Below are positions 13,807 to 25,832 of a stretch of DNA of 36,575 nt, one piece after another. The translations under genes were made by a program, and so were the position numbers. Position 1 is the first letter of the stretch; every line of letters starts with the position of its first letter. The notes beneath the pieces are model-generated. The model searched no databases. It was not told the origin of the DNA and saw nothing but the letters and a program-made list of their open reading frames with translations. Location of the stretch: positions 1 through 36,575 of the forward strand of contig CAIYNF010000034.1 of assembly GCA_903927505.1 (NCBI GenBank), written 5' to 3'. Origin of the DNA: an uncultured Bacteroidota bacterium (GTDB lineage Bacteria; Bacteroidota; Bacteroidia; UKL13-3).

Positions 13807-16458
13807 CTATTCTTTGATAATTTTAGTTTGGTACACTTCCTTTTCTGCAATAAGCTGAACCAAATAAATGCCAGGCACCCAATTTTCGCCACTTATCACA
13901 CTTTTACCGTCTATAAGCATTCCGGCAAAAACTTGCGCACCCATTAAATTATAAACTTCCAATTTGGCATTTTTCAAGGAAGTACTTTCAATACTAAAGG
14001 TTTGGGTAAATGGATTAGGAAAAATAAGAGGTGAAATACTTTCTGCCGCTATTTCATTTTCGCCAACAGCATAAGTAGTGGCAATTAGGGTATGGATGAT
14101 TCCCTTACATGTAGGATTACTTATTAAAAACTTTGCCTCCATATTGCCTGTAAATCCGGCATTTCGGGTAATGGTAATGTTAGAACCATTGGTGCTAATT
14201 GTTTCTCCGGCAACTGGTATTTGGTATAATTCAATTTTATAATAGCTCGGGTAGGCCAAAGTAAAATCAACACTTGTAGCGCCGTTAAATCTTTTCAATT
14301 CAAAAGGTCCAGTTATAATATTACTTGGTATCAAGTCTACCAAAATAGAATCTGTTCGCTTGCTGGTATTTTTAAAAGTTAGCGTATTAAAATAACTTGT
14401 TTTCTGACTGGGTTTTACCAAAATACTATTGGTAGTTGTGCTTTGTAAAAAAGGATCTATTGGTTTACTTCCCCAAGTATAAGAGACATCTACCAGTGTG
14501 TCTTTGTTAATTGAAAGGAGAAGCGTTTGTTCTTTGCATATTTTGCATGGAATGGAATTGATATAAATCCAATCAGTATCTGCTGTATTATCTGGTGCTT
14601 TTATGGCAAGTTTTATGGAATCTAAACCTATCCAAAACCTATTGTTTTTTGGCATCAAGTTGAGATACCTGTTGGCAGTTAAACTTGCCGAAATATTTTG
14701 CCCATTTGTAAGAATATAATATTGCATTTGTGTTTGCGCATACCCGCTACAGGCGCCGTCTTGCGCCAGGTCAATTTGTGTAAACGCTTGGTTGGCAACC
14801 CTGCTAATTTTTGTTCCTTTTAAGAAAGGCTTCTTGGCAGATTTAAATTTTATGCCGCTTACATAAACTTTAGCATTGCTGCTGCTTACATAATTGAGAA
14901 TAAAAGAAACATAGTTAATGCCATCGGGTATTTCTATGTCTACACTTCTTTCTGTATAGCTTATTGAGTTGCAGGGAATAGCATAATACTTACTTGCATT
15001 TATTTCTGGCAAATTAACTACCAAGGTGAGGTAATCATTTGCATTTGCACCACCCTTGGTGCTCACATAAAAGGTATTTTTCCCCCGGTTCAAACCAAAC
15101 AAACGATCGCAAGAAACAAGGGTTGCGGAGCTATTTGCTTGTAGGCAATAATTTTTATTATAGAGAACACCACTTAGCGTATCTTTAATAACAGTTGATC
15201 CAAATGTTAAGCCATCTGCTATACCATTTTTATCTAAATCTGTTTGCAATGCAGGAAAAATATCTTCGCTTTGATCCCAAAATCCACCCCATAAATAGTT
15301 GCTCCAATCTTGGTAGGTTTTAACAGGAATAGTATTTGCTTTACACCAAATAAGCACCTGTTCCAAATTGCTCAGCATTTGCGAAAAGGGGCTTGCGCCA
15401 TAGGCCGAAGAAAAATGGTTGATGCTAATAAGGATTTGGTTTTTTGCTACTGCTTCCGCAATGCTTGTTTTGATCACCGCTGCGCTTTGCGTTTCTGGTG
15501 AAATATCAGAACCTTGAATGCAATATTGTAAATTGTTATGTGGGTTGTAATAACTTATTCCTGTGTTTTGTTCGGGGTAGGAGGCGGCACATTTAATGCC
15601 AAAAGGCTCCAATGCTTCCTTTAATACTTGCTTGTCTACGTAAGGATGAGCGCCACCTGGATGTATAAAAGTTTTTGGCAATTTGAGTTTGTATTTTTCA
15701 AATTGCTCCATGCTAAATTCAGCCATCAATTGCAATCCTTCTTTATCAATGCTTAATTGGTAGGGCGAAATTTTTCGGTAGGCAATATTACTATACGTGC
15801 CCAATGCAATGGGTTCGTTCCAAATAGTATTTACAAAAATGGTGTCGGGGTTATTGGCATTGGCATTTAGGATATTTCCTATTTGAACCAATTTGCCCAA
15901 GCTTGGAAAATACAGATGCGTAGTTACTTTGCCATTGTTTAATTTAGTCCAAGCAAATTCACCATTGTTTTTACTTATTATTCTGTTGCCACTGATATCA
16001 ATATTTCCTTCATCGCCAGCGCCTGCATTATTTAGGATTGAATATTTTAAACAAACCCTGTTTGGGCTGCCCGTTGTAATATGGTCGACCCCAGCTCTGC
16101 CATTATAGCTTAAGGCAATGACTGCGGTGTTTGGTTCAAAATAGTGAATGGCATCAGACGGACTTTGGTCTGCCAATTCATGGCCAGCATTTTCCAATTC
16201 TTTAGCGGCATTCCAAAAAGCGGTATCATTTAGTAAATCTGGAATGCCTGTATTTAAGGCATAGGTAAATTTAAAACCATATTTGTTAAAGAGGGCATTT
16301 ACCGCACGCAATTTATCGGCAGTTTGGTAATCGTCGAACCTAAAACAAATGCCACCTGATTTGCTTTGAAAGGTTTGTGCTTGCGAACAATTTTCAAAAG
16401 AAAATTGCATACACAAGAAGTAGAATAAGTAAAAGAATGGGTACTTAATTGCTTTCAT
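13807..16458 (-). CDS. Secreted deacetylase-like protein with T9SS C-terminal sorting domain
   Basis: This 883-residue protein starts with a signal peptide (MKAIKYPFFYLFYF...). The N-terminal third resembles a NodB-type polysaccharide deacetylase: GGICFRFDDY at 35-44 (Asp42/43), GHELADQSPSDAIHYF near 92-107, and HPGGAHPY near 266-273. The usual HxxxH metal site after GHE is not evident, since the first His is Gln98, so catalysis is doubtful. The middle is beta-rich, with SPRY- or Ig-like stretches I cannot name. The last 75 residues (PLIFPNPFTQTFSIES...KLEVYNLMGAQVF...GIYLVQLIA...KIIKE) are a type A T9SS sorting domain, so the protein should reach the cell surface or medium. A start six codons upstream is possible, but ATG 16458 gives the cleaner signal. 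Confidence 0.85.
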   Translation of the reverse strand: MKAIKYPFFYLFYFLCMQFSFENCSQAQTFQSKSGGICFRFDDYQTADKLRAVNALFNKYGFKFTYALNTGIPDLLNDTAFWNAAKELENAGHELADQSPSDAIHYFEPNTAVIALSYNGRAGVDHITTGSPNRVCLKYSILNNAGAGDEGNIDISGNRIISKNNGEFAWTKLNNGKVTTHLYFPSLGKLVQIGNILNANANNPDTIFVNTIWNEPIALGTYSNIAYRKISPYQLSIDKEGLQLMAEFSMEQFEKYKLKLPKTFIHPGGAHPYVDKQVLKEALEPFGIKCAASYPEQNTGISYYNPHNNLQYCIQGSDISPETQSAAVIKTSIAEAVAKNQILISINHFSSAYGASPFSQMLSNLEQVLIWCKANTIPVKTYQDWSNYLWGGFWDQSEDIFPALQTDLDKNGIADGLTFGSTVIKDTLSGVLYNKNYCLQANSSATLVSCDRLFGLNRGKNTFYVSTKGGANANDYLTLVVNLPEINASKYYAIPCNSISYTERSVDIEIPDGINYVSFILNYVSSSNAKVYVSGIKFKSAKKPFLKGTKISRVANQAFTQIDLAQDGACSGYAQTQMQYYILTNGQNISASLTANRYLNLMPKNNRFWIGLDSIKLAIKAPDNTADTDWIYINSIPCKICKEQTLLLSINKDTLVDVSYTWGSKPIDPFLQSTTTNSILVKPSQKTSYFNTLTFKNTSKRTDSILVDLIPSNIITGPFELKRFNGATSVDFTLAYPSYYKIELYQIPVAGETISTNGSNITITRNAGFTGNMEAKFLISNPTCKGIIHTLIATTYAVGENEIAAESISPLIFPNPFTQTFSIESTSLKNAKLEVYNLMGAQVFAGMLIDGKSVISGENWVPGIYLVQLIAEKEVYQTKIIKE

Positions 16459-16571
16459 TTGGCATTTGCAAGTCATTTGGGCTTAAGGGCACACCCAAGT
16501 TTATACAGTTGATTGTTTTAAGTAGGGGTTCTTAATCAACTATCACAAAGTTAAATAAATTTCTCGGCATC

Positions 16572-18003: not shown

Positions 18004-18311
18004 GCCTGCTGCCCGTTTATATTCATATAATTATATGGGTATTTTAATATGAAATTATTAAGTAAACACGAGCTAATATATTATATGAAATGTTTAATAT
18101 AAAATAACTAATGTATAAATATATGCATTTGTAAATCTGTTTTCTAAATTATCAGGTCTAAAAAACTGCATTTTAAGAAAGGAATTATGTGGTAATTTGT
18201 AAAAAAAAATACTTGAAGGCATCAGATGAAAAAAACCACTCCATGTTTAAAGGATGGCAGACATAGTAAAACTTGAATTCTTATAAATTAATGCATAAAC
18301 CAAAACAAAAT
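18004..18311. other. A+T-rich left island edge, possible regulatory region
   Basis: No gene is seen. At 18021-18040 there is an 8-4-8 motif, ATTCATAT-AATT-ATATGGGT, resembling the perfect inverted repeat at 23497-23516. Further ATATGAAAT copies occur at 18047-18055 and 18083-18091. This is the upstream region of the two small exported-protein genes. In such A+T-rich DNA these matches could be chance. Confidence 0.35.
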
Positions 18312-18746
18312 ATGAAGAAAATTATCTCAATGTTGTTGATAGTCATACTATTACTATGTAATCAAGAAGCAAAAGCAGTTAAGGTCATAATTAATCAAGA
18401 CAATTATGTCCGAAAAACTTTTGGAGTAGTTGAAGAGGAATCTACATACATTTTGGGGAATGATGGAGTTATGAGACTCGTAGAGCGAAAAGTACATTGT
18501 TCTCAGCCAGGATTTTCAGAATGCAGACCTAGTGCAGGTGGATATGTTTTAGAACCTGAAATGGAATTAATCAACCAATTGATTGATTATGCAAACCTTA
18601 AATTTGCCGAAGGGGTAAATTCAGGTACTCATAACACTAGTGTAACCATTGGGTTCCCTGATGGAACAATAATTGTGAAAAACTATCAGGTTAGTTGGGT
18701 TAAAATATCTGACACAGAATATAAAATAGTAATTAATGAAATTTAA
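18312..18746 (+). CDS. Small exported protein, paralogue of the next gene
   Basis: This 144-residue protein has a clear Sec signal peptide (MKKIISMLLIVILLLCNQEAKA, cleavage after AKA). The mature part has two cysteines in C-x2-PG-x2-EC (Cys63 and Cys71), a helix-like INQLIDYANLKF, and a beta-rich end finishing INEI. The same features in the same order occur in the next gene, so the two are paralogues. I do not recognise the family. It would act in the periplasm or outside; there is no T9SS tail. ATG 18312 is chosen because it starts the signal peptide; an upstream TTG (18273) would add 13 unlikely residues. The gap to the paralogue is 10 bases, so the two form one operon. Confidence 0.75.
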   Translation: MKKIISMLLIVILLLCNQEAKAVKVIINQDNYVRKTFGVVEEESTYILGNDGVMRLVERKVHCSQPGFSECRPSAGGYVLEPEMELINQLIDYANLKFAEGVNSGTHNTSVTIGFPDGTIIVKNYQVSWVKISDTEYKIVINEI

Positions 18747-18756
18747 TTAATACAAA

Positions 18757-19242
18757 ATGAAAAAAATAATTTTTACAATTGCTTTATTTTTGGGAATTAT
18801 CGAAGTAAATTATGCAGAAATAATTATCCAAGTTAAAAGAACTGAAATCAATATAGGACCAAATGGTTGTAAGGTGGTATCCGGTTTTGATAAGGTAACT
18901 TACAATGGAGATGGAACCATTCAAAGGATTGATAGGTCAATAGGTTGTGCAGATCCTGGGTCAGAAGAATGCCCTCCAGATAACCTGCACCTAGCGCCTG
19001 TATTAGACCAGAATGGGATAGAGGCACTTCCCATAGCTGTGGTTAATAATATTAATCAATTGATAGCGGCGGCATATGCAAATTCTGGAAGTAATACTAG
19101 TGGTTCAAGTTCTTCTCAGGTATGGATTTACGGCACTAATGGAAACATAGTGGGGCAATACGCTATTACGTTGACATGGAATAAAGTATTAACTGGCAGT
19201 GGATATGAGCTTACCTATAATATCCTTGTAAATCAAATTTGA
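18757..19242 (+). CDS. Small exported protein, paralogue of the previous gene
   Basis: This 161-residue protein has a Sec signal peptide (MKKIIFTIALFLGIIEVNYA, cleavage near residue 20). Like its neighbour it has C-x2-PG-x2-EC (Cys64 and Cys72), an INQLIAAAYA helix, a Ser/Gly-rich linker (GSNTSGSSSS), a beta-rich TWNKV...YELTYNILVNQI end, and an extra Cys38. The paired cysteines probably form a disulfide in the periplasm. No family or function is recognised. The two copies differ along most of their length, so the duplication is old or the genes have diverged fast. It is in an operon with the upstream copy; the next gene starts 89 bases later. Confidence 0.75.
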   Translation: MKKIIFTIALFLGIIEVNYAEIIIQVKRTEINIGPNGCKVVSGFDKVTYNGDGTIQRIDRSIGCADPGSEECPPDNLHLAPVLDQNGIEALPIAVVNNINQLIAAAYANSGSNTSGSSSSQVWIYGTNGNIVGQYAITLTWNKVLTGSGYELTYNILVNQI

Positions 19243-19330: not shown

Positions 19331-20521
19331 ATGAAGAAAATAGTAGCTTTTTTATTTTTCTATACAATTTGTAATTTTAGCCTTAGTGCTCAAAGCAAGT
19401 TAAGTGATGTGTTTTTTCTTGACACTATTGTCCCAGTTGTTGGTATATCAAGCGATTTATTATATCAGAATAAATTAAAAATTTCAATTGTAGACGATGA
19501 CATTTTCTTATCATACCAAAAAGATAAATCACGTTTGCATTTATCATTAATTAATAAGGGTAAAGTTAAAAAACAAAAAGTAATCAATATTCCAAGGAAA
19601 TACATTTGTAAAGATGCTTATACATTAATTTGTACTACCATTAGTAAAGATTATATATTGTTCGGTTATACAGACTTTTTCTATATTTTTAAAAGGAAGG
19701 GTCACGGAATTAAATTTTATGCAAAAATAATAAATAACCATGCATATGATTCCTATGAAATATATGGCAACCAGGTTTTTTGCTGTTATTCATATAATGA
19801 AGCTGGTGGCAATAAAAGAGTTAAAATCTCAAAATTTGATATCATTATGAAGAAGATAATTAAAGAAGTTGAGTTGGAATTTAAATATATGGAGTATTCT
19901 CATTTTACACCAAGACATTGGTTTGCTATTGGTGATGAGAAATTATTTTTGACTAATACGGCGATTTATGAATTTTCGGTATTTGATAACAATATAGATT
20001 CTGTAGGAAATGTAAAAAGAAAATTGGATAATTGGGTGGAGGCAAGTGACTCAGTGATAAAAAGAATTCGGGATGAAAACTATGGTGCAAGAAAAACCTT
20101 AAACGTGCTTTCAAAAGCAAATAATAATGAAATAAGTCGTGTAGAAGGTATTTGGTGTTTAAATGATTCAGTAATTTTGGTTAGATATTTTATGAAAAAT
20201 ATATCTGGGGAATTTAAAAACAGGTTTTTTGATATATATAAAACAAAAAACGATTCCATCCAATTAATATATTCTTCCTTGTCTGATGTTAGTTTTCCAT
20301 TAAATATGCAGGAAAAGGTTACCAAAAACAATTCTCAGTTATGGACATGGAATTTTTATAATGAAATTGGATCAAGCAAGATTGTTTTAGTAAAGCCAAT
20401 GGCTCCAATAGAATACTTAGGTAAAACTTTATTAGAATCAAAAAAAGATGAGGAAGAATTTTATAAAGTACATGAACCTATTGTTGGAATATGGGTTTAT
20501 AAACTTAAAATGGGTTACTAA
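19331..20521 (+). CDS. Exported propeller-like protein of unknown function
   Basis: This 396-residue protein has a signal peptide ending SLSAQ (MKKIVAFLFFYTICNFSLSA). The mature part consists of repeated beta-strand pairs (DDDIFLSYQKDKSRLHLSLI, KDYILFGYTDFFYIFKR, DEKLFLTNTAIYEFSVFD, NDSVILVRYFMK) typical of six- or seven-bladed propellers such as the 6-bladed beta-propeller proteins of Bacteroidota. This is a fold guess; no catalytic motif is seen. No lipobox or T9SS tail is present, so it is likely periplasmic. Its 3' end overlaps the start of the thioredoxin-like gene by up to 74 bases, implying coupled translation. Confidence 0.7.
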   Translation: MKKIVAFLFFYTICNFSLSAQSKLSDVFFLDTIVPVVGISSDLLYQNKLKISIVDDDIFLSYQKDKSRLHLSLINKGKVKKQKVINIPRKYICKDAYTLICTTISKDYILFGYTDFFYIFKRKGHGIKFYAKIINNHAYDSYEIYGNQVFCCYSYNEAGGNKRVKISKFDIIMKKIIKEVELEFKYMEYSHFTPRHWFAIGDEKLFLTNTAIYEFSVFDNNIDSVGNVKRKLDNWVEASDSVIKRIRDENYGARKTLNVLSKANNNEISRVEGIWCLNDSVILVRYFMKNISGEFKNRFFDIYKTKNDSIQLIYSSLSDVSFPLNMQEKVTKNNSQLWTWNFYNEIGSSKIVLVKPMAPIEYLGKTLLESKKDEEEFYKVHEPIVGIWVYKLKMGY

Positions 20522-21044
20522 ATATACCCTGTTTATTGCATGTTTCTCATTAAATATTAATTTATTGAATGCTCAAAAAATTTGTGACAGCACATATTTG
20601 TACTCGTTTAATGGAGATTCAATAAGTTTTCAAAGTTCCTTTTTAAATAAAAGGGTACTATTTATTTTTCTTGATGGAGCTAGTTGCACAGGTTGTAATA
20701 TGAGCCTTTACAATTTTTTGAAAAAAAATGTGCCAAAAAGTGTGAATATTATCTTAATTCAGAAATATACTCCTAGTGTAGAATATTGTAGGATGAAAAT
20801 AGCACAAAGCAAATTGCAATTTGGAGCCAATTACACTACATACTTTGTAAAAGTCAATGAAAATCTCAAAAGTGAATTTAAAGAGTCTGTAGCAGCAAAT
20901 TTCCTAAACAATTTTGAATATTATCCAGATGTTATATTTTATGATTCTAATTCTAAAAAAATGAGAACATTTGAATATAAATTCATCTTTGATAATGTTT
21001 ACATAAGCGATAAATTTAAAATTGAATTGATGAAATTATTTTAA
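20448..21044 (+). CDS. Exported thioredoxin-like protein with CTGC motif
   Basis: This is a 198-residue frame. A hydrophobic signal segment (TKYTLFIACFSLNINLLNAQ, cleavage near Ala42) precedes a thioredoxin-like core: RVLFIFLDGASCTGCNMSLYNF with CTGC at 80-83, and a probable cis-Pro in EYYPDVIFYD. It would be a periplasmic thiol-disulfide protein. The start is unclear: ATG 20448 or ATG 20472 gives a long n-region, and both lie inside the upstream gene, so translation is probably coupled to it. It ends 10 bases from the convergent response-regulator gene. The truncated thioredoxin-like gene at 16572-17363 is of the same general class. Confidence 0.7.
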   Translation: MRKNFIKYMNLLLEYGFINLKWVTKYTLFIACFSLNINLLNAQKICDSTYLYSFNGDSISFQSSFLNKRVLFIFLDGASCTGCNMSLYNFLKKNVPKSVNIILIQKYTPSVEYCRMKIAQSKLQFGANYTTYFVKVNENLKSEFKESVAANFLNNFEYYPDVIFYDSNSKKMRTFEYKFIFDNVYISDKFKIELMKLF

Positions 21045-21046
21045 GG

Positions 21047-21064
21047 CGTTTGAATTAAACGTTT
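21047..21064. terminator. Possible bidirectional terminator
   Basis: CGTTT (21047-21051) and AAACG (21057-21061) form a short hairpin with a 5-base loop followed by TTTT on the plus strand, in the gap between two convergent genes. The stem is weak. Confidence 0.25.
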
Positions 21065-21714
21065 TCAGTTGGAGTGTAGAACTTCTGAGTAATCATATAA
21101 TTCATAAGTTCGGCACTTTTGTGTATACCTAATTTTTTCCAAATTCTGTGTCGGTGAGAGTTTATCGTAGCTGGCGCCAAGCATAATCTCTTGGCTATTT
21201 CCTTGGTTGATAATCCGTCACAAATGTTTGTAGCAACTTTGAACTCTATAGGAGACAAGTTTATTTTAGAATTCTTTGCTCCATCACTTATTTTTTTATG
21301 ATGATTTAAGATTACATTTAATCCTTCAAAATCGAAGAAGCTCTTTTTGTCAATTATGATTGTATCTATAGCTTTACGAATATCTGTTAATTCTAAGTCC
21401 TTAAATAGATAGCCATTTGCTTCATTATTATATGCATTTATAATAAGGGCTTCATCATGGAATGAGGAAATAATTAATACTTTACTTGTATAATTTGAGT
21501 TTTTTAACTTCTTGCAAATTTCAAGTCCATTTTCTTCTTTAAGTCTGATGTCTAAAATAATCAAATCAAATTTTGTAGACTTCATGCCTTCATACAGCTC
21601 CTTACTTGTGGAATATGTAGCAACATGGCCTACGTATGGAATGCGATTTAAAATAGCTCTAAAGCCTTCCCTGATGCCAACATGGTCATCAACTATAGCG
21701 ATTTGAGTCTTCAT
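21055..21714 (-). CDS. LuxR/NarL-type response regulator
   Basis: This 219-residue cytosolic regulator has an N-terminal receiver domain with Asp9/Asp10, the phospho-acceptor Asp55 in LIILDIRL, Ser83/84 and Lys105 in GYLFKD. It has a C-terminal LuxR-type helix-turn-helix at about 152-209 (LSPIEFKVATNICDGLSTKEIA, then PATINSHRHRIWKKLGI). All key residues are present. The gene starts 2 bases after the histidine-kinase stop, so the two form a cognate pair and are the last genes of a four-gene operon. Targets are unknown; the divergent region at 23374-23744, with its repeated inverted motif, is the best candidate. Confidence 0.95.
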   Translation of the reverse strand: MKTQIAIVDDHVGIREGFRAILNRIPYVGHVATYSTSKELYEGMKSTKFDLIILDIRLKEENGLEICKKLKNSNYTSKVLIISSFHDEALIINAYNNEANGYLFKDLELTDIRKAIDTIIIDKKSFFDFEGLNVILNHHKKISDGAKNSKINLSPIEFKVATNICDGLSTKEIAKRLCLAPATINSHRHRIWKKLGIHKSAELMNYMITQKFYTPTENV

Positions 21715-21716
21715 GA

Positions 21717-22457
21717 TTAATTTATTGGGATAAAAATGGTAAAAGTGCTGCCTGAATCCTTGATATATTGAATGGTACCATTTAAAAAAGCCACCCTGTT
21801 AACTATATTGTTAACACCTAGGCCAGAGGATGTTTTTACCATAGATGTAAAATCAAAACCTACTCCATCATCTACAAAGGAGATGTAAAGGATACTACCT
21901 TCTTTTTGAATATATAGATCAATTTTGTTAGCACTAGCATGTTTAATAGTATTGCTTATTAGTTCACTAATTATTCTATAAATATTTATTTCAATTATTT
22001 GAGAAAAGCGGTCTTCAATATCACAAATCAAATTAATGGTTATTGAATTTTTATATCTTTTAACAAGATCATTAATTGCATTAGCTAATCCATATATTTT
22101 AATAGTTTGGGGCATCAAAGTTTGTGATGTCAACCTGGTTGTTTGAATAGCATCAGAAAGGTATGACAAAGAACTGGAAATGCAATTTTTTAGTGCTTGA
22201 ATATCATTGCTGTGTATCAAGTTCTCTAAGTTTAGTTTTATTCCTATTAAATTTGACCCTAAATCGTCGTGTAAATCCATTGCAATTTTACTCCGCTCTT
22301 CCTCCTGTGTAAGGTATATTGATTCAAATATTGCCTTGGTATGCGTTTCCTTGATTTTTTGGTTGCGAAAAATAATAATTATAATTAAACCCGATAAAAT
22401 TAAAAATAATAGGGTGAAAAATATTATAACAGATAAAATATTGTCTATTTCTTGCAT
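21717..22457 (-). CDS. NarX/DesK-type sensor histidine kinase
   Basis: This 246-residue kinase has one N-terminal membrane helix (about residues 8-30) and almost no periplasmic part. The HisKA_3 dimerisation helix holds His63 in EEERSKIAMDLHDDLGSNLIG. The ATP domain has the N-box Asn169 (ELISNTIKHA), DDGVGFD at 196-202 and SGLGVNNIVNR at 211-221. With no sensory domain of its own, it probably takes its signal from the 7-TM protein encoded just upstream, whose gene overlaps its start by 13 bases. The response regulator gene follows after 2 bases. Confidence 0.95.
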   Translation of the reverse strand: MQEIDNILSVIIFFTLLFLILSGLIIIIIFRNQKIKETHTKAIFESIYLTQEEERSKIAMDLHDDLGSNLIGIKLNLENLIHSNDIQALKNCISSSLSYLSDAIQTTRLTSQTLMPQTIKIYGLANAINDLVKRYKNSITINLICDIEDRFSQIIEINIYRIISELISNTIKHASANKIDLYIQKEGSILYISFVDDGVGFDFTSMVKTSSGLGVNNIVNRVAFLNGTIQYIKDSGSTFTIFIPIN

Positions 22458-23059
22458 GTGAACGCTTTTGAAAATAAAATATTTTGCAATGTGCTAATAA
22501 TAAAAGTAAAAAATGTATAGTATTTAACAAGGATATTGGTGCCATTAACGATTTTGATTTTATCAAAGAAAACATACATTGTAATACTTGGAAAAGTTGC
22601 AACTAAAATGCCAGATAAAAACCAAAATCTAAATTTTTTATGTGAATTTTCGTTCTCTTTTTTTGTGTAATTAAATAGTTGTATGGCACTTGTAATGCCT
22701 ATAAACGAGTAGATTGCTAAATAGTTATTTTGTTTGAAAATAAATGCATTAAAAGAAAAGGTTAAATATACTGTAAAAAATAGAATTGCTAAGGAAATAA
22801 ATCCTAGTATATTTTGTCCATTTTTTAAAAAGATAAATGCAAAAAAAACTATAGTTATTAAATCAATACAGTTATAAAAAAAATGGTTATTGATTGAATG
22901 AAAGGAAAGATTCAAACTTAAAGATTCCAAAAATAAAACAAACATTAGGTAAAAAATAAAAGGTTTAGCAATTACATCGCTATGCCGATTAAAAAATATT
23001 ATACCAAAAATTATTGGTATAATACTACCTAGTGATGAAAAAACCTGATAAAACTTCAC
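22445..23059 (-). CDS. Seven-helix membrane protein, likely sensor partner of the kinase
   Basis: This 204-residue protein is mostly hydrophobic, with about seven membrane helices (near residues 5-23, 32-50, 60-78, 84-101, 114-130, 144-166 and 180-198). A charged loop (YTKKENENSHKKFRF) lies between helices 5 and 6. No family is recognised. The start is GTG (23057-23059), which overlaps the stop of the upstream gene by one base (TAGTG), and its 3' end overlaps the kinase gene by 13 bases, so the operon is tightly coupled. The kinase lacks an input domain, so this protein may sense the signal or anchor the complex. Confidence 0.75.
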   Translation of the reverse strand: MKFYQVFSSLGSIIPIIFGIIFFNRHSDVIAKPFIFYLMFVLFLESLSLNLSFHSINNHFFYNCIDLITIVFFAFIFLKNGQNILGFISLAILFFTVYLTFSFNAFIFKQNNYLAIYSFIGITSAIQLFNYTKKENENSHKKFRFWFLSGILVATFPSITMYVFFDKIKIVNGTNILVKYYTFFTFIISTLQNILFSKAFTCKK

Positions 23060-23373
23060 TAACTATTTAGGTTGTTCTGTGCACTGCAAACTGGCGGGCA
23101 TAAACTTCCATGTTCCATGATTAGTCCGTTAACCATGTCGTCCTCATTGGCATTTACGCCTACAATTACTAACCTTTGAACATCGTTATTGTCGATTCCA
23201 TAATAAATTCGGATTCCAACACAATCTGTTTGATCGAGTAGGGCCTGAATGGAGGATTTGCTAAAATACTCGCCCTTAATGTAGTCTGTACCACCCTGAG
23301 CTTCTCTATAGTTTGCTGTTAGCATCGCAGCATCATTGTAGCTAATTTCGTTGTTTTCGTTTCCTGTATACAT
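23059..23373 (-). CDS. 104-residue soluble protein, first gene of the signalling operon
   Basis: This protein has no signal peptide or membrane helix. It reads NEISYNDAAMLTANYREA, then GEYFSKSSIQALLDQ, then the strongly patterned CVGIRIYYGIDNNDVQRLVIVGVNANEDDM, and ends CPPVC (Cys92-Cys96) plus an Asn-rich tail. Small proteins with an IRIYYG..D core and a CPP.C end occur widely in Bacteroidota as hypotheticals; I know no function. The layout suggests a small alpha/beta domain with a possible metal or disulfide site. Its stop overlaps the GTG of the 7-TM gene by one base. It is divergent from the beta-helix gene, 371 bases away. Confidence 0.75.
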   Translation of the reverse strand: MYTGNENNEISYNDAAMLTANYREAQGGTDYIKGEYFSKSSIQALLDQTDCVGIRIYYGIDNNDVQRLVIVGVNANEDDMVNGLIMEHGSLCPPVCSAQNNLNS

Positions 23374-23744
23374 ACTATTTATTTATAACTACAAGTTGCG
23401 AAAAATAATATTAAAAAGCAATGCCCAAAACTAAATAGTTATAGAAATTAAACTAGTTTCAAATACAATTTGAATTTCAATCATTTGTGATGTTTGATTC
23501 ATATAAAAATATGAATGATTTAATATAAAAATATGAATAGTTAAATTGTTGTAATTTTAGTTTTTTAAATAATTTAATTTTGACTTAAGTATTATTTCCA
23601 ATTATTAATCAAAACGTATGCTTTCATTAGCATTTTAATAGTAATAATATAAATTAATAGGCTGGAATTAAACTGCATTCTTTTTGAAAATATATATTAT
23701 CAAATTAATGCTTTAAAAAGATTTTCTTTTGTAAATAAAAACAT
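23374..23744. promoter_or_regulatory. 371-bp divergent regulatory region
   Basis: This gap lies between the signalling operon (minus) and the beta-helix gene (plus). It is very A+T-rich and shows no gene. It holds the paired motif at 23497-23538. No clear TAnnTTTG -7 element is seen in front of either gene, so a dedicated activator may be needed; that is an inference. Confidence 0.5.
23497..23538. repeat. Paired inverted-repeat motif, candidate operator
   Basis: ATTCATAT-AAAA-ATATGAAT (23497-23516) is a perfect 8-4-8 inverted repeat. A second copy, TTTAATAT-AAAA-ATATGAAT (23519-23538), keeps 14 of the 16 arm positions. The shared 16-base direct repeat is at 23501-23516 and 23523-23538, 22 bases apart (two helical turns). 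Two dimer sites on one DNA face would suit a LuxR-type regulator. Confidence 0.5.
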
Positions 23745-25832
23745 ATGAATCCTCAATTAACAACAATTTTTGATTTAAGAAATTTAGTAGTTCCAGTTAT
23801 AAATGAAATTTATTATACAACAGATATAGGAATGGAAGGCAATTGGTACTATGATAATACAGATTTAATTTCTTTAGATAATACAGGAACAATTCTTGTT
23901 GGAGTTGGGGGATATAGGTATAAAAGAATTTATGATGGTTATGTTAATGTTAAATGGTTTGGCGCAATTGGTAATGGCGTTGTTGATGATTTTTTTGCAA
24001 TACAAAATGCATTAAATTTCGTTAGTTATGCTTTAGATCCCAATCCATTAGTTTCAGGGGTTTATGGCGGGAATACGCTTTTTTTTCCAAAGGGTGTTTA
24101 TTTGATAAGTGCTACATTATTGGTTGGACAAAATTGTAGGTTGATTGGTGTAAATAATAGATACCATTTTGTATATTCTCAAACCACATCGAGCGGAGGT
24201 ACTGTTATAAAAGCAAACTTTGAGAATCCTGATTTCTGGTTAATAGAATCTGCAACCTTTGAAAATGGCTTGCCAGTTTTGCCGCCATATAATAATGCCT
24301 TAATTAAGGATGGCGGAGAACCAAACAGTTTTTATAATTACATATATCGTATGGGTATAAGTATTGAAAATATTACTATTGATGGTGGTGAAAATATTGC
24401 CTTCGGAGGTGTTCGATTAAGTAATGCTGGAAACTCGATGGTACGTAATGTTGGCTTTTTTAACATAAAATGTGGTTTAATGTTTAATACCTGTTGGGGT
24501 GGGTCAATTGAAAATTGTTTTGTCAACTCTAAACACTATGGCGCATTAGTTTTAGACTGCAATTCAATAATGTTATCTGATTCTTATTTTAGTACTTTTT
24601 CACAAGAAAATCGTGTTGATGAATTACCAAGTTTCATTTATCAGCAAGAAGATTATGCTTTTTGGGATTTAAATGAAAATGTTAAATTTGGAACTACAGG
24701 GGTTTATATTTTAAGAAGTTACGCAGTAGGCATGATTTCAAATGTTGTGGAACAATTTGCAAATGGAATAGGTTGTTTTCAATCCACGGTTTCTTGTAAT
24801 GCAAGTTATTGCGAGGGACACGCTTATTATGGAATTATTGTCGGAATTGAGGATTCTCAATTAATGATGAATGAAGTTCAAATTATTAATGTACAATATG
24901 GTTTTATTTTTGGTAAAAATGCCCAATCAACCATAAACGGAGTTAGTCAAATAAAAAGCCCAGAAAACACTTATTTAAATTGCTTATTTGAAAATAATAT
25001 TTCAAGTAATCGAAGTATTTGTTTTTCAAACACCAATTTTATTTTACGTAAATATAATTCAGAAATTGTATTTTTAGATAATTGTAAATATGGTAAAAAT
25101 ACGGGAAGTCTTTATATAAATCCAAAAGATGGTAGTGATGATAATTATGGATTTACATCCATGGATGCAATTAAAACATTTGATACTGCATTGAAAAGAA
25201 TTCAAAATCAGTCTACTTTAAACCCAATTAAAACAATTTTAATAAAAGGTGCTCCCATTGCTAATTTGCCAAATGATAATATTATAGGTGCAGCGAGAAA
25301 ATCTATAAATCCAATTAAAATTGAAAATTGTGAAATTTTAATATCAACGTACGATGCTGATAGTAATAATCCAAGGGGTAGAATATTTTTTGATGGATTA
25401 ACTAGTGGCTTTGTTGGAATTGGGCAAATTATAATTGGTTCAAATGTAAATCTTTACTTTAAGGATGTGGAATTAACAACAAATACAAATGACATTTTGC
25501 CCACTGTAGTTGGAAATTTAACAGTGTTTGAACTACAAAATTCTTATTGTCAATTAACTTTTGAATATTCTGATTTAACTAATATTGTTTTAAGTACGAT
25601 AAATTTATATAAATATTACAATTTGATTCAAGCTAAAGTTGATCCATTAAATCCATTATTATCTTCAATTGTTGACATAAAATTTCTTAATTGCATAATT
25701 TACAATCATTTTGGGGGGCTTAGTCCAATTCAAAATGGCAACCAAAATTTAAGTGTTATTTGCACCCAGACAAAAAGTTCTAGAGGATTTATTGGTTGGC
25801 AGGATTTTGCTTCCATTTTAAATAATTTTTAA
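23745..25832 (+). CDS. Tail-spike-like right-handed beta-helix protein (pectate lyase 3 superfamily)
   Basis: This 695-residue protein has no signal peptide and no T9SS tail. Residues 30-66 resemble the head of tail-spike proteins (GNWYYDNTD, then GYRYKRIYDG). VNVKWFGAIGNGVVDDFFAIQNAL (67-90) is the hallmark start of the pectate_lyase_3 beta-helix, followed by GGNTLFFPKGVYLIS. Helical repeats run to about residue 450. A second module then starts at about 455 (LYINPKDGSDDNYGF...A.KTFDTAL), another motif seen at the start of beta-helix domains. Catalytic residues cannot be assigned. Such proteins can be phage or injection-system spikes, or polysaccharide-binding proteins; how this one leaves the cell, if it does, is unclear. 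A 28-base gap separates it from the giant T9SS protein gene. Confidence 0.8.
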   Translation: MNPQLTTIFDLRNLVVPVINEIYYTTDIGMEGNWYYDNTDLISLDNTGTILVGVGGYRYKRIYDGYVNVKWFGAIGNGVVDDFFAIQNALNFVSYALDPNPLVSGVYGGNTLFFPKGVYLISATLLVGQNCRLIGVNNRYHFVYSQTTSSGGTVIKANFENPDFWLIESATFENGLPVLPPYNNALIKDGGEPNSFYNYIYRMGISIENITIDGGENIAFGGVRLSNAGNSMVRNVGFFNIKCGLMFNTCWGGSIENCFVNSKHYGALVLDCNSIMLSDSYFSTFSQENRVDELPSFIYQQEDYAFWDLNENVKFGTTGVYILRSYAVGMISNVVEQFANGIGCFQSTVSCNASYCEGHAYYGIIVGIEDSQLMMNEVQIINVQYGFIFGKNAQSTINGVSQIKSPENTYLNCLFENNISSNRSICFSNTNFILRKYNSEIVFLDNCKYGKNTGSLYINPKDGSDDNYGFTSMDAIKTFDTALKRIQNQSTLNPIKTILIKGAPIANLPNDNIIGAARKSINPIKIENCEILISTYDADSNNPRGRIFFDGLTSGFVGIGQIIIGSNVNLYFKDVELTTNTNDILPTVVGNLTVFELQNSYCQLTFEYSDLTNIVLSTINLYKYYNLIQAKVDPLNPLLSSIVDIKFLNCIIYNHFGGLSPIQNGNQNLSVICTQTKSSRGFIGWQDFASILNNF

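Follow-up and report, generated by a model that had tools for sequence, protein, structure and literature searches.

A conserved four-gene operon of Bacteroidota and related phyla in which a small soluble protein paired with a 7-TM protein is the putative input of a sensor-less histidine kinase

Many histidine kinases of Bacteroidota seem to be "blind" in that they carry no sensor domain, which raises the question of how they receive a signal. An operon in a 36,575-nucleotide stretch of DNA from an uncultured Bacteroidota bacterium (contig CAIYNF010000034.1; hereafter the window) poses this question in compact form and suggests an answer, namely, that the sensor consists of two unnamed proteins encoded just upstream of the kinase. 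The four genes of the operon are as follows.

23059-23373, minus strand: SP, a soluble protein of 104 aa with a CPPxC tail and without a signal peptide; predicted to form a compact alpha/beta domain that includes the tail
22445-23059, minus strand: 7TM, a 7-TM protein of 204 aa with a GTG start; predicted N-out/C-in bundle of GPCR/rhodopsin shape
21717-22457, minus strand: histidine kinase of 246 aa with a single N-terminal membrane helix, HisKA_3 (PF07730) and HATPase_c (PF02518)
21055-21714, minus strand: response regulator of 219 aa with a receiver domain (PF00072, Asp55) and a LuxR-type DNA-binding domain (GerE, PF00196)

The four frames, their overlaps and the gap between them were confirmed to the base as the first-pass annotation had described them: the SP stop and the 7TM start share one base (TAGTG), the 7TM and kinase genes overlap by 13 bases, and the kinase and regulator genes are separated by 2 bases. 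The SP protein has no hidden N-terminal extension or signal peptide, because an in-frame TAA lies four codons upstream of its ATG. By domain content, the last two genes encode a two-component system, with Pfam matches above the cut-offs for HisKA_3 and HATPase_c in the kinase and for the receiver and GerE domains in the regulator. The DLHDDLG motif with His63, the N-box and the G-box of the kinase are all intact, as is the phospho-acceptor Asp55 of the regulator. The Pfam search of the kinase yielded no sensor domain and no HAMP match, which together with the helix count bore out the earlier description of a one-helix kinase lacking a sensor domain.

Gene order across genomes

SP loci were gathered by SP searches alone, so that gene order formed no part of the search. 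SP was found in 22 of 98 relatives, in 46 of 395 phylum genomes by profile, and at 67 loci in named genomes, for which the query was a closer subset of the SP alignment. A 7TM homologue lay directly 3' of SP on the same strand for 124 of 128 distinct SP genes (deduplicated, with at least 800 bases downstream), and the order continued on the same strand through 7TM, kinase and regulator at 105 of 118 distinct loci (deduplicated, with at least 2.8 kb downstream). This recurrence of the four-gene order far exceeds chance. The hosts belong to Bacteroidota, Ignavibacteria, Marinimicrobia, KSB1 and Gemmatimonadales and include the named genera Pontibacter, Hymenobacter, Chitinophaga, Larkinella, Dyadobacter and Mucilaginibacter. 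The four SP genes without an adjacent 7TM comprised two tandem secreted genes (L051), an SP–SP tandem (L181) and a case with an early-starting 7TM frame (L183). The adjacent exported proteins at L051 (G067) measure 225 and 280 aa and have SP-like domains with no adjoining 7TM; they are the only clear partnerless SP genes.

The 7TM family is wider than SP and was detected by profile in 87 of the 395 phylum genomes. Forty 7TM loci were picked for the absence of a detected SP; a kinase was present at 35 of them, and 10 of their upstream genes matched SP when an improved profile was used. Upstream genes that the SP model did not match (length at least 70 aa) ended in a CP motif in 14 of 25 cases, compared with 67 of 794 other ORFs (Fisher p = 5e-9). 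One of these 14, at L231, is a chance member, because its upstream gene is nqrF-like and unrelated. When profiles of the upstream genes were compared with SP, six groups gave E values of 4e-5 to 1e-7 at probabilities of 69–94%, and other groups were intermediate (10–43%), against E values of 0.2–0.5 for two controls. Since many of the seemingly SP-less upstream genes are thus remote SP relatives, SP appears to be the partner of 7TM at least usually and perhaps nearly always.

The earlier proposal was that the 104-aa and 7-TM proteins are the likely sensing parts of the sensor-less kinase, and two observations had been named beforehand as speaking against it: homologues of the two proteins found mostly apart from kinases, and a 104-aa frame that is not conserved. 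The counts above agree with the proposal, and the frame was kept across more than 100 species, so that neither observation was made. The proposal is thus supported, and we infer that SP itself may take part in sensing.

Several loci depart from the common arrangement. At L231, L244 and L256, 7TM homologues occur with no visible SP, and L231 lies beside nqrE/nqrF-like genes. Two SP–7TM copies at L047 and L048 (G034) are followed by a one-helix protein of 237–242 aa in which no kinase domain could be recognised and which may be a degenerate output or one other than a kinase; the upstream gene at L048 is weakly HTH_3-like. The SP–7TM pairs of Fibrella have no adjoining kinase.

The SP and 7TM families

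SP and 7TM define two new protein families. Searches of Pfam, NCBIfam and PHROGs assigned the window SP to no family, and alignments of its relatives (78 in the Pfam search) turned up only scattered weak matches in Pfam, NCBIfam and PDB sequences. A match to the PADLOC family PDC-S14 (E value, 0.0015) covered the N-terminal half of SP and was rejected as too weak and probably due to chance; PDC-S14 is a candidate family of 280 aa that might hide an SP relative. The top conserved residues of SP are C92 and C96 of the CPPxC tail, Y57, C51, P93, R55 and D79, of which R55, Y57, C92 and P93 are almost invariant. Losses of C92 and C96 are mostly joint (7 of 11) and C51 varies independently; therefore, C92 and C96 may work as one site, i.e., a metal site, a disulfide or a dithiol. 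A metal or thiol signal acting through this pair and C51 is one option, as yet unproven. The pair cannot explain everything, because some functional-looking members of the family are without it.

The AlphaFold2 model of SP had a mean pLDDT of 95.9. Among solved structures in the PDB, the top Foldseek E value was 0.38 and the top Z was 2.3, and nothing was matched in a viral fold library; a new fold is thus possible, a missing match not being proof of novelty. Two-domain SP-like forms of about 250 aa occur among the genes 5' of 7TM, and tandem-domain and lipid-anchored forms exist among the relatives.

A simple check of N-terminal hydrophobicity and lipobox motifs gave no export signal for 117 of 134 SP homologues, and the other 17 have a signal peptide, an anchor or a lipobox. 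The predicted orientation of 7TM showed no obvious change alongside these varying signals. Either SP acts from either side of the membrane, or some SPs leave the cell by an unrecognised route, or the check misreads some N-termini. The proposed mechanism is weakest on this point, as the side on which SP acts is not well supported.

These data bear on the idea that SP is a secreted or released agr-like signal, read as a ligand by the 7TM of the same or neighbouring cells, so that the system would sense population or lysis. Such a role would suit a small protein encoded first in the operon, whose sequences are very divergent yet keep the Cys-Pro tail, whose partner is GPCR-like and whose relatives include the 17 exported, anchored or lipidated forms. 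However, the other 117 lack an export signal, neither the operon nor the conserved unit includes a protease or exporter gene, and the tail is ordered within the predicted fold (pLDDT 94) rather than a loose peptide. The tandem-domain and lipid-anchored forms are also unlike diffusible signals. We therefore regard a signalling role of this kind as decidedly improbable.

For the 7TM protein of the window, Pfam, NCBIfam and PHROGs likewise offered no family and the PDB no similar sequence, and its relatives (74 in the Pfam search) gave nothing more than scattered weak matches in Pfam, NCBIfam and PDB sequences. Its AlphaFold2 model (pLDDT 92.0) has seven membrane helices, in line with the original 7-TM call for the 204-aa protein, and its charge distribution (positive-inside) fits an N-out, C-in orientation. 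Comparison of the model with GPCRs and rhodopsins gave Z values of 10–11.8 over 183–204 residues, which helical bundles may reach by arrangement alone, and the best Foldseek E value of 0.21 was not significant. An assignment as a microbial rhodopsin was rejected, because helix 7 is without the conserved retinal-binding lysine (the best column has lysine in 12 of 74 sequences, at the cytosolic end). Membership in 7TMR-DISM (PF07695) was also rejected: the profile–profile probability was 2.2%, the window 7TM was unmatched, and only 1 of 74 relatives matched the Pfam model, at 4.5e-4.

The same protein could instead be a transporter or membrane enzyme with SP as its soluble partner, the kinase reporting flux. 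There is precedent in the sensor-less Bce-type kinases, which rely on a transporter (PMC8534201). The 7TM protein, however, matched no transporter family or fold, its best fold matches being receptor and rhodopsin bundles; the operon supplies neither an ATPase nor an energised partner, and conserved polar residues are few within its helices. A transporter-based mechanism is accordingly very unlikely here.

Proposed signal input and output

The arrangement of SP and 7TM relative to the kinases suggests what they do. The two genes are duplicated as a pair, giving SP–7TM–SP–7TM–kinase–regulator in Larkinella and others, and two or three 7TM genes per kinase are present at some loci. Kinases behind 7TM are of four types (HisKA_3, PAS-HisKA, LytS type and HisKA_2), with GerE or LytTR regulators, the usual pairing being HisKA_3 with GerE. 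For example, L088, L103 and L093 have HisKA kinases with PAS domains, one with a fused receiver; L246 has a LytS-type His_kinase, a LytTR regulator and a remote SP relative; and L231, where SP is not visible, has a HisKA_2 kinase and a LytTR regulator. Across loci, the module kinases have a single membrane helix and are mostly without a sensor domain. Co-duplication, exchange of the kinase class and the mostly sensor-less one-helix kinases together suggest that SP–7TM delivers the signal to whichever kinase comes next, and the exchange of kinase types fits a transferable input unit. In a mirror-tree comparison of SP, 7TM, kinase and regulator, the correlation between the SP and 7TM distance matrices was weak (Spearman 0.165; distances saturated). 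The status of SP–7TM as an input unit is well supported by genome organization, unlike the ligand and the direction of control, which are not.

We consider that the operon is probably a split-receptor two-component system, in which SP and 7TM provide the input that controls a one-helix kinase and, through it, a LuxR-type regulator. SP and 7TM would form one input unit, and 7TM, lying N-out and C-in, would hold the one transmembrane helix of the kinase, which is itself without a sensor. When SP, a pocket of 7TM or both together perceive a signal, the packing of 7TM and the kinase helix would shift, and the kinase would toggle between its kinase and phosphatase states. Phosphate would pass from His63 to Asp55 of the regulator, which would then bind palindromic sites, probably in its own upstream region and possibly at divergent surface-protein genes. 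The contact among SP, 7TM and kinase, the direction of control, the signal and the target genes are what we infer in this scheme.

A variant that differs mainly in the sign of control holds that SP and/or 7TM are constitutive repressors keeping the kinase in phosphatase mode, the stimulus being envelope stress at the membrane part. Its model is LiaS, a kinase that senses within the membrane, has no extracellular domain and is paired with a NarL-type regulator and the inhibitory protein LiaF (PMC7191749), and accessory proteins often repress their cognate kinase (PMC8534201). Against it, neither SP nor 7TM matched LiaF-type families, and the extra SP–7TM pairs per kinase and the exchange of kinase types suit input units at least equally well. 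Constitutive repression thus seems rather unlikely.

The output of the proposed split-receptor system was sought in the neighbourhood of the operon, where two features of the window lie divergently upstream.

23497-23516, no strand: candidate operator, the inverted repeat ATTCATAT-N4-ATATGAAT in the divergent intergenic region 5' of SP; its 8-base arms alone are not significant
23745-25832, plus strand: pectate-lyase-like beta-helix protein (PF12708), the divergent neighbour and a possible target gene

A protein 56% identical to the pectate-lyase-like one is also encoded divergently upstream of the module at L040. Palindromes with arms of at least 9 bases were present 5' of SP at 18 of 126 loci, compared with about 2.6 expected from resampled sequence. 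This excess is consistent with binding of a dimeric regulator, and some of the palindromes may be terminators. A single shared operator motif was rejected, as TACTAT-N-ATAGTA occurred 5' of just 3 of the 126 SP genes and is not general. No target gene was common to all module neighbourhoods (T9SS-sorted proteins in 6 of 96, tail-collar proteins in 4 of 96, dnaB in 2 of 96, the rest mixed); since the neighbours are mixed, the output appears to differ between species. The first-pass annotation had placed the module inside an island with surface proteins. A surface-protein gene does neighbour it in the window, but the module is not island-specific, as Flavobacterium-like genomes have it beside dnaB or ordinary chromosomal genes.

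Proteins with a phage tail-collar domain (PF07484), often in tandem, were encoded beside the SP module at L109, L111, L113, L114, L117, L042, L046 and L254; the genomes are Flavobacterium-like or of other kinds, and a 2OG-Fe(II) oxygenase gene accompanies them at two of these loci and a sulfotransferase gene at one. On the other side of the operon in the window, a secreted protein of 198 aa that has a CTGCN motif but no Pfam family (20448-21044, plus strand) flanks the region; its gene overlaps the end of a 396-aa gene (19331-20521) and is convergent with the regulator gene. Two tandem small secreted proteins of 157 and 161 aa (18273-19242, plus strand) are paralogue-like, belong to no Pfam family and have a common Cys-rich stretch (CSQPGFSECRP and CADPGSEECPP). 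A thioredoxin-like protein (PF13098; 16572-17363, minus strand) also flanks the region. Beyond it, an 889-aa protein beginning MTCKCQMKAIKYPFFYLF (13807-16476, minus strand) has a near-copy in the same-genus genome L032 (13133-15802, plus strand), which adjoins the SP module there in a different arrangement.

Comparison with known systems

No account of an SP–7TM–kinase–regulator module was found in a search of the open literature; the Lipocone paper was checked as well and does not concern the module. The module would provide annotation rules for a signalling system in about one-fifth of the sampled Bacteroidota-type genomes, to judge from the 87 of 395 with 7TM. Its natural input–output swaps also make it suitable for studying the control of a kinase by a 7-TM protein via a single transmembrane helix.

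The operon resembles LiaFSR in that a sensor-less membrane kinase, a LuxR/NarL-type regulator and an extra membrane protein are encoded together, and the window kinase matches the NCBIfam LiaS model, although at 91 bits against a cut-off of 450. LiaS, however, combines two membrane regions with a HAMP domain (PMC7191749), whereas the window kinase has a single helix and gave no match to HAMP. No LiaF-type Pfam match was obtained for SP or 7TM, alone or across their 78 and 74 relatives. The module moreover needs a soluble second accessory protein, and it belongs to the Bacteroidota group rather than to Firmicutes, as LiaFSR does. Bce-type modules are similar in that their kinase lacks a sensor and relies on a second membrane protein, but this partner is an ABC transporter, and no ATPase is encoded in the present operon or its homologues.

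Among seven-helix proteins, 7TMR-DISM are bacterial 7-TM signalling proteins that are frequent in these genomes too, but their frames are mostly 650–730 aa, whereas 7TM is a stand-alone protein of about 205 aa. Sensory rhodopsin–transducer pairs likewise have a stand-alone N-out seven-helix receptor; 7TM is presumed to adjoin the transmembrane helix of another signalling protein in the same way, and its modelled bundle aligns with sensory rhodopsin II at Z 10.4. Unlike these receptors, 7TM has no retinal lysine and no PDB sequence match, and it requires SP. The module also differs from agr-like peptide signalling, in that its conserved unit has no protease or exporter gene and most SPs are unexported.

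We put forward tentatively, as a broader possibility, that the module represents an undescribed receptor class of Bacteroidota, Ignavibacteria, Marinimicrobia and Gemmatimonadota, in which a GPCR-shaped 7TM and a small soluble or lipid-anchored ligand-binding half of new fold are coupled to four unrelated kinase classes. Among known systems, LiaFSR and Bce come closest, in which an intramembrane kinase without a sensor works with an accessory membrane protein. The module departs from them in its obligatory soluble partner, in the GPCR-like shape predicted for 7TM and in the exchange of kinase classes.
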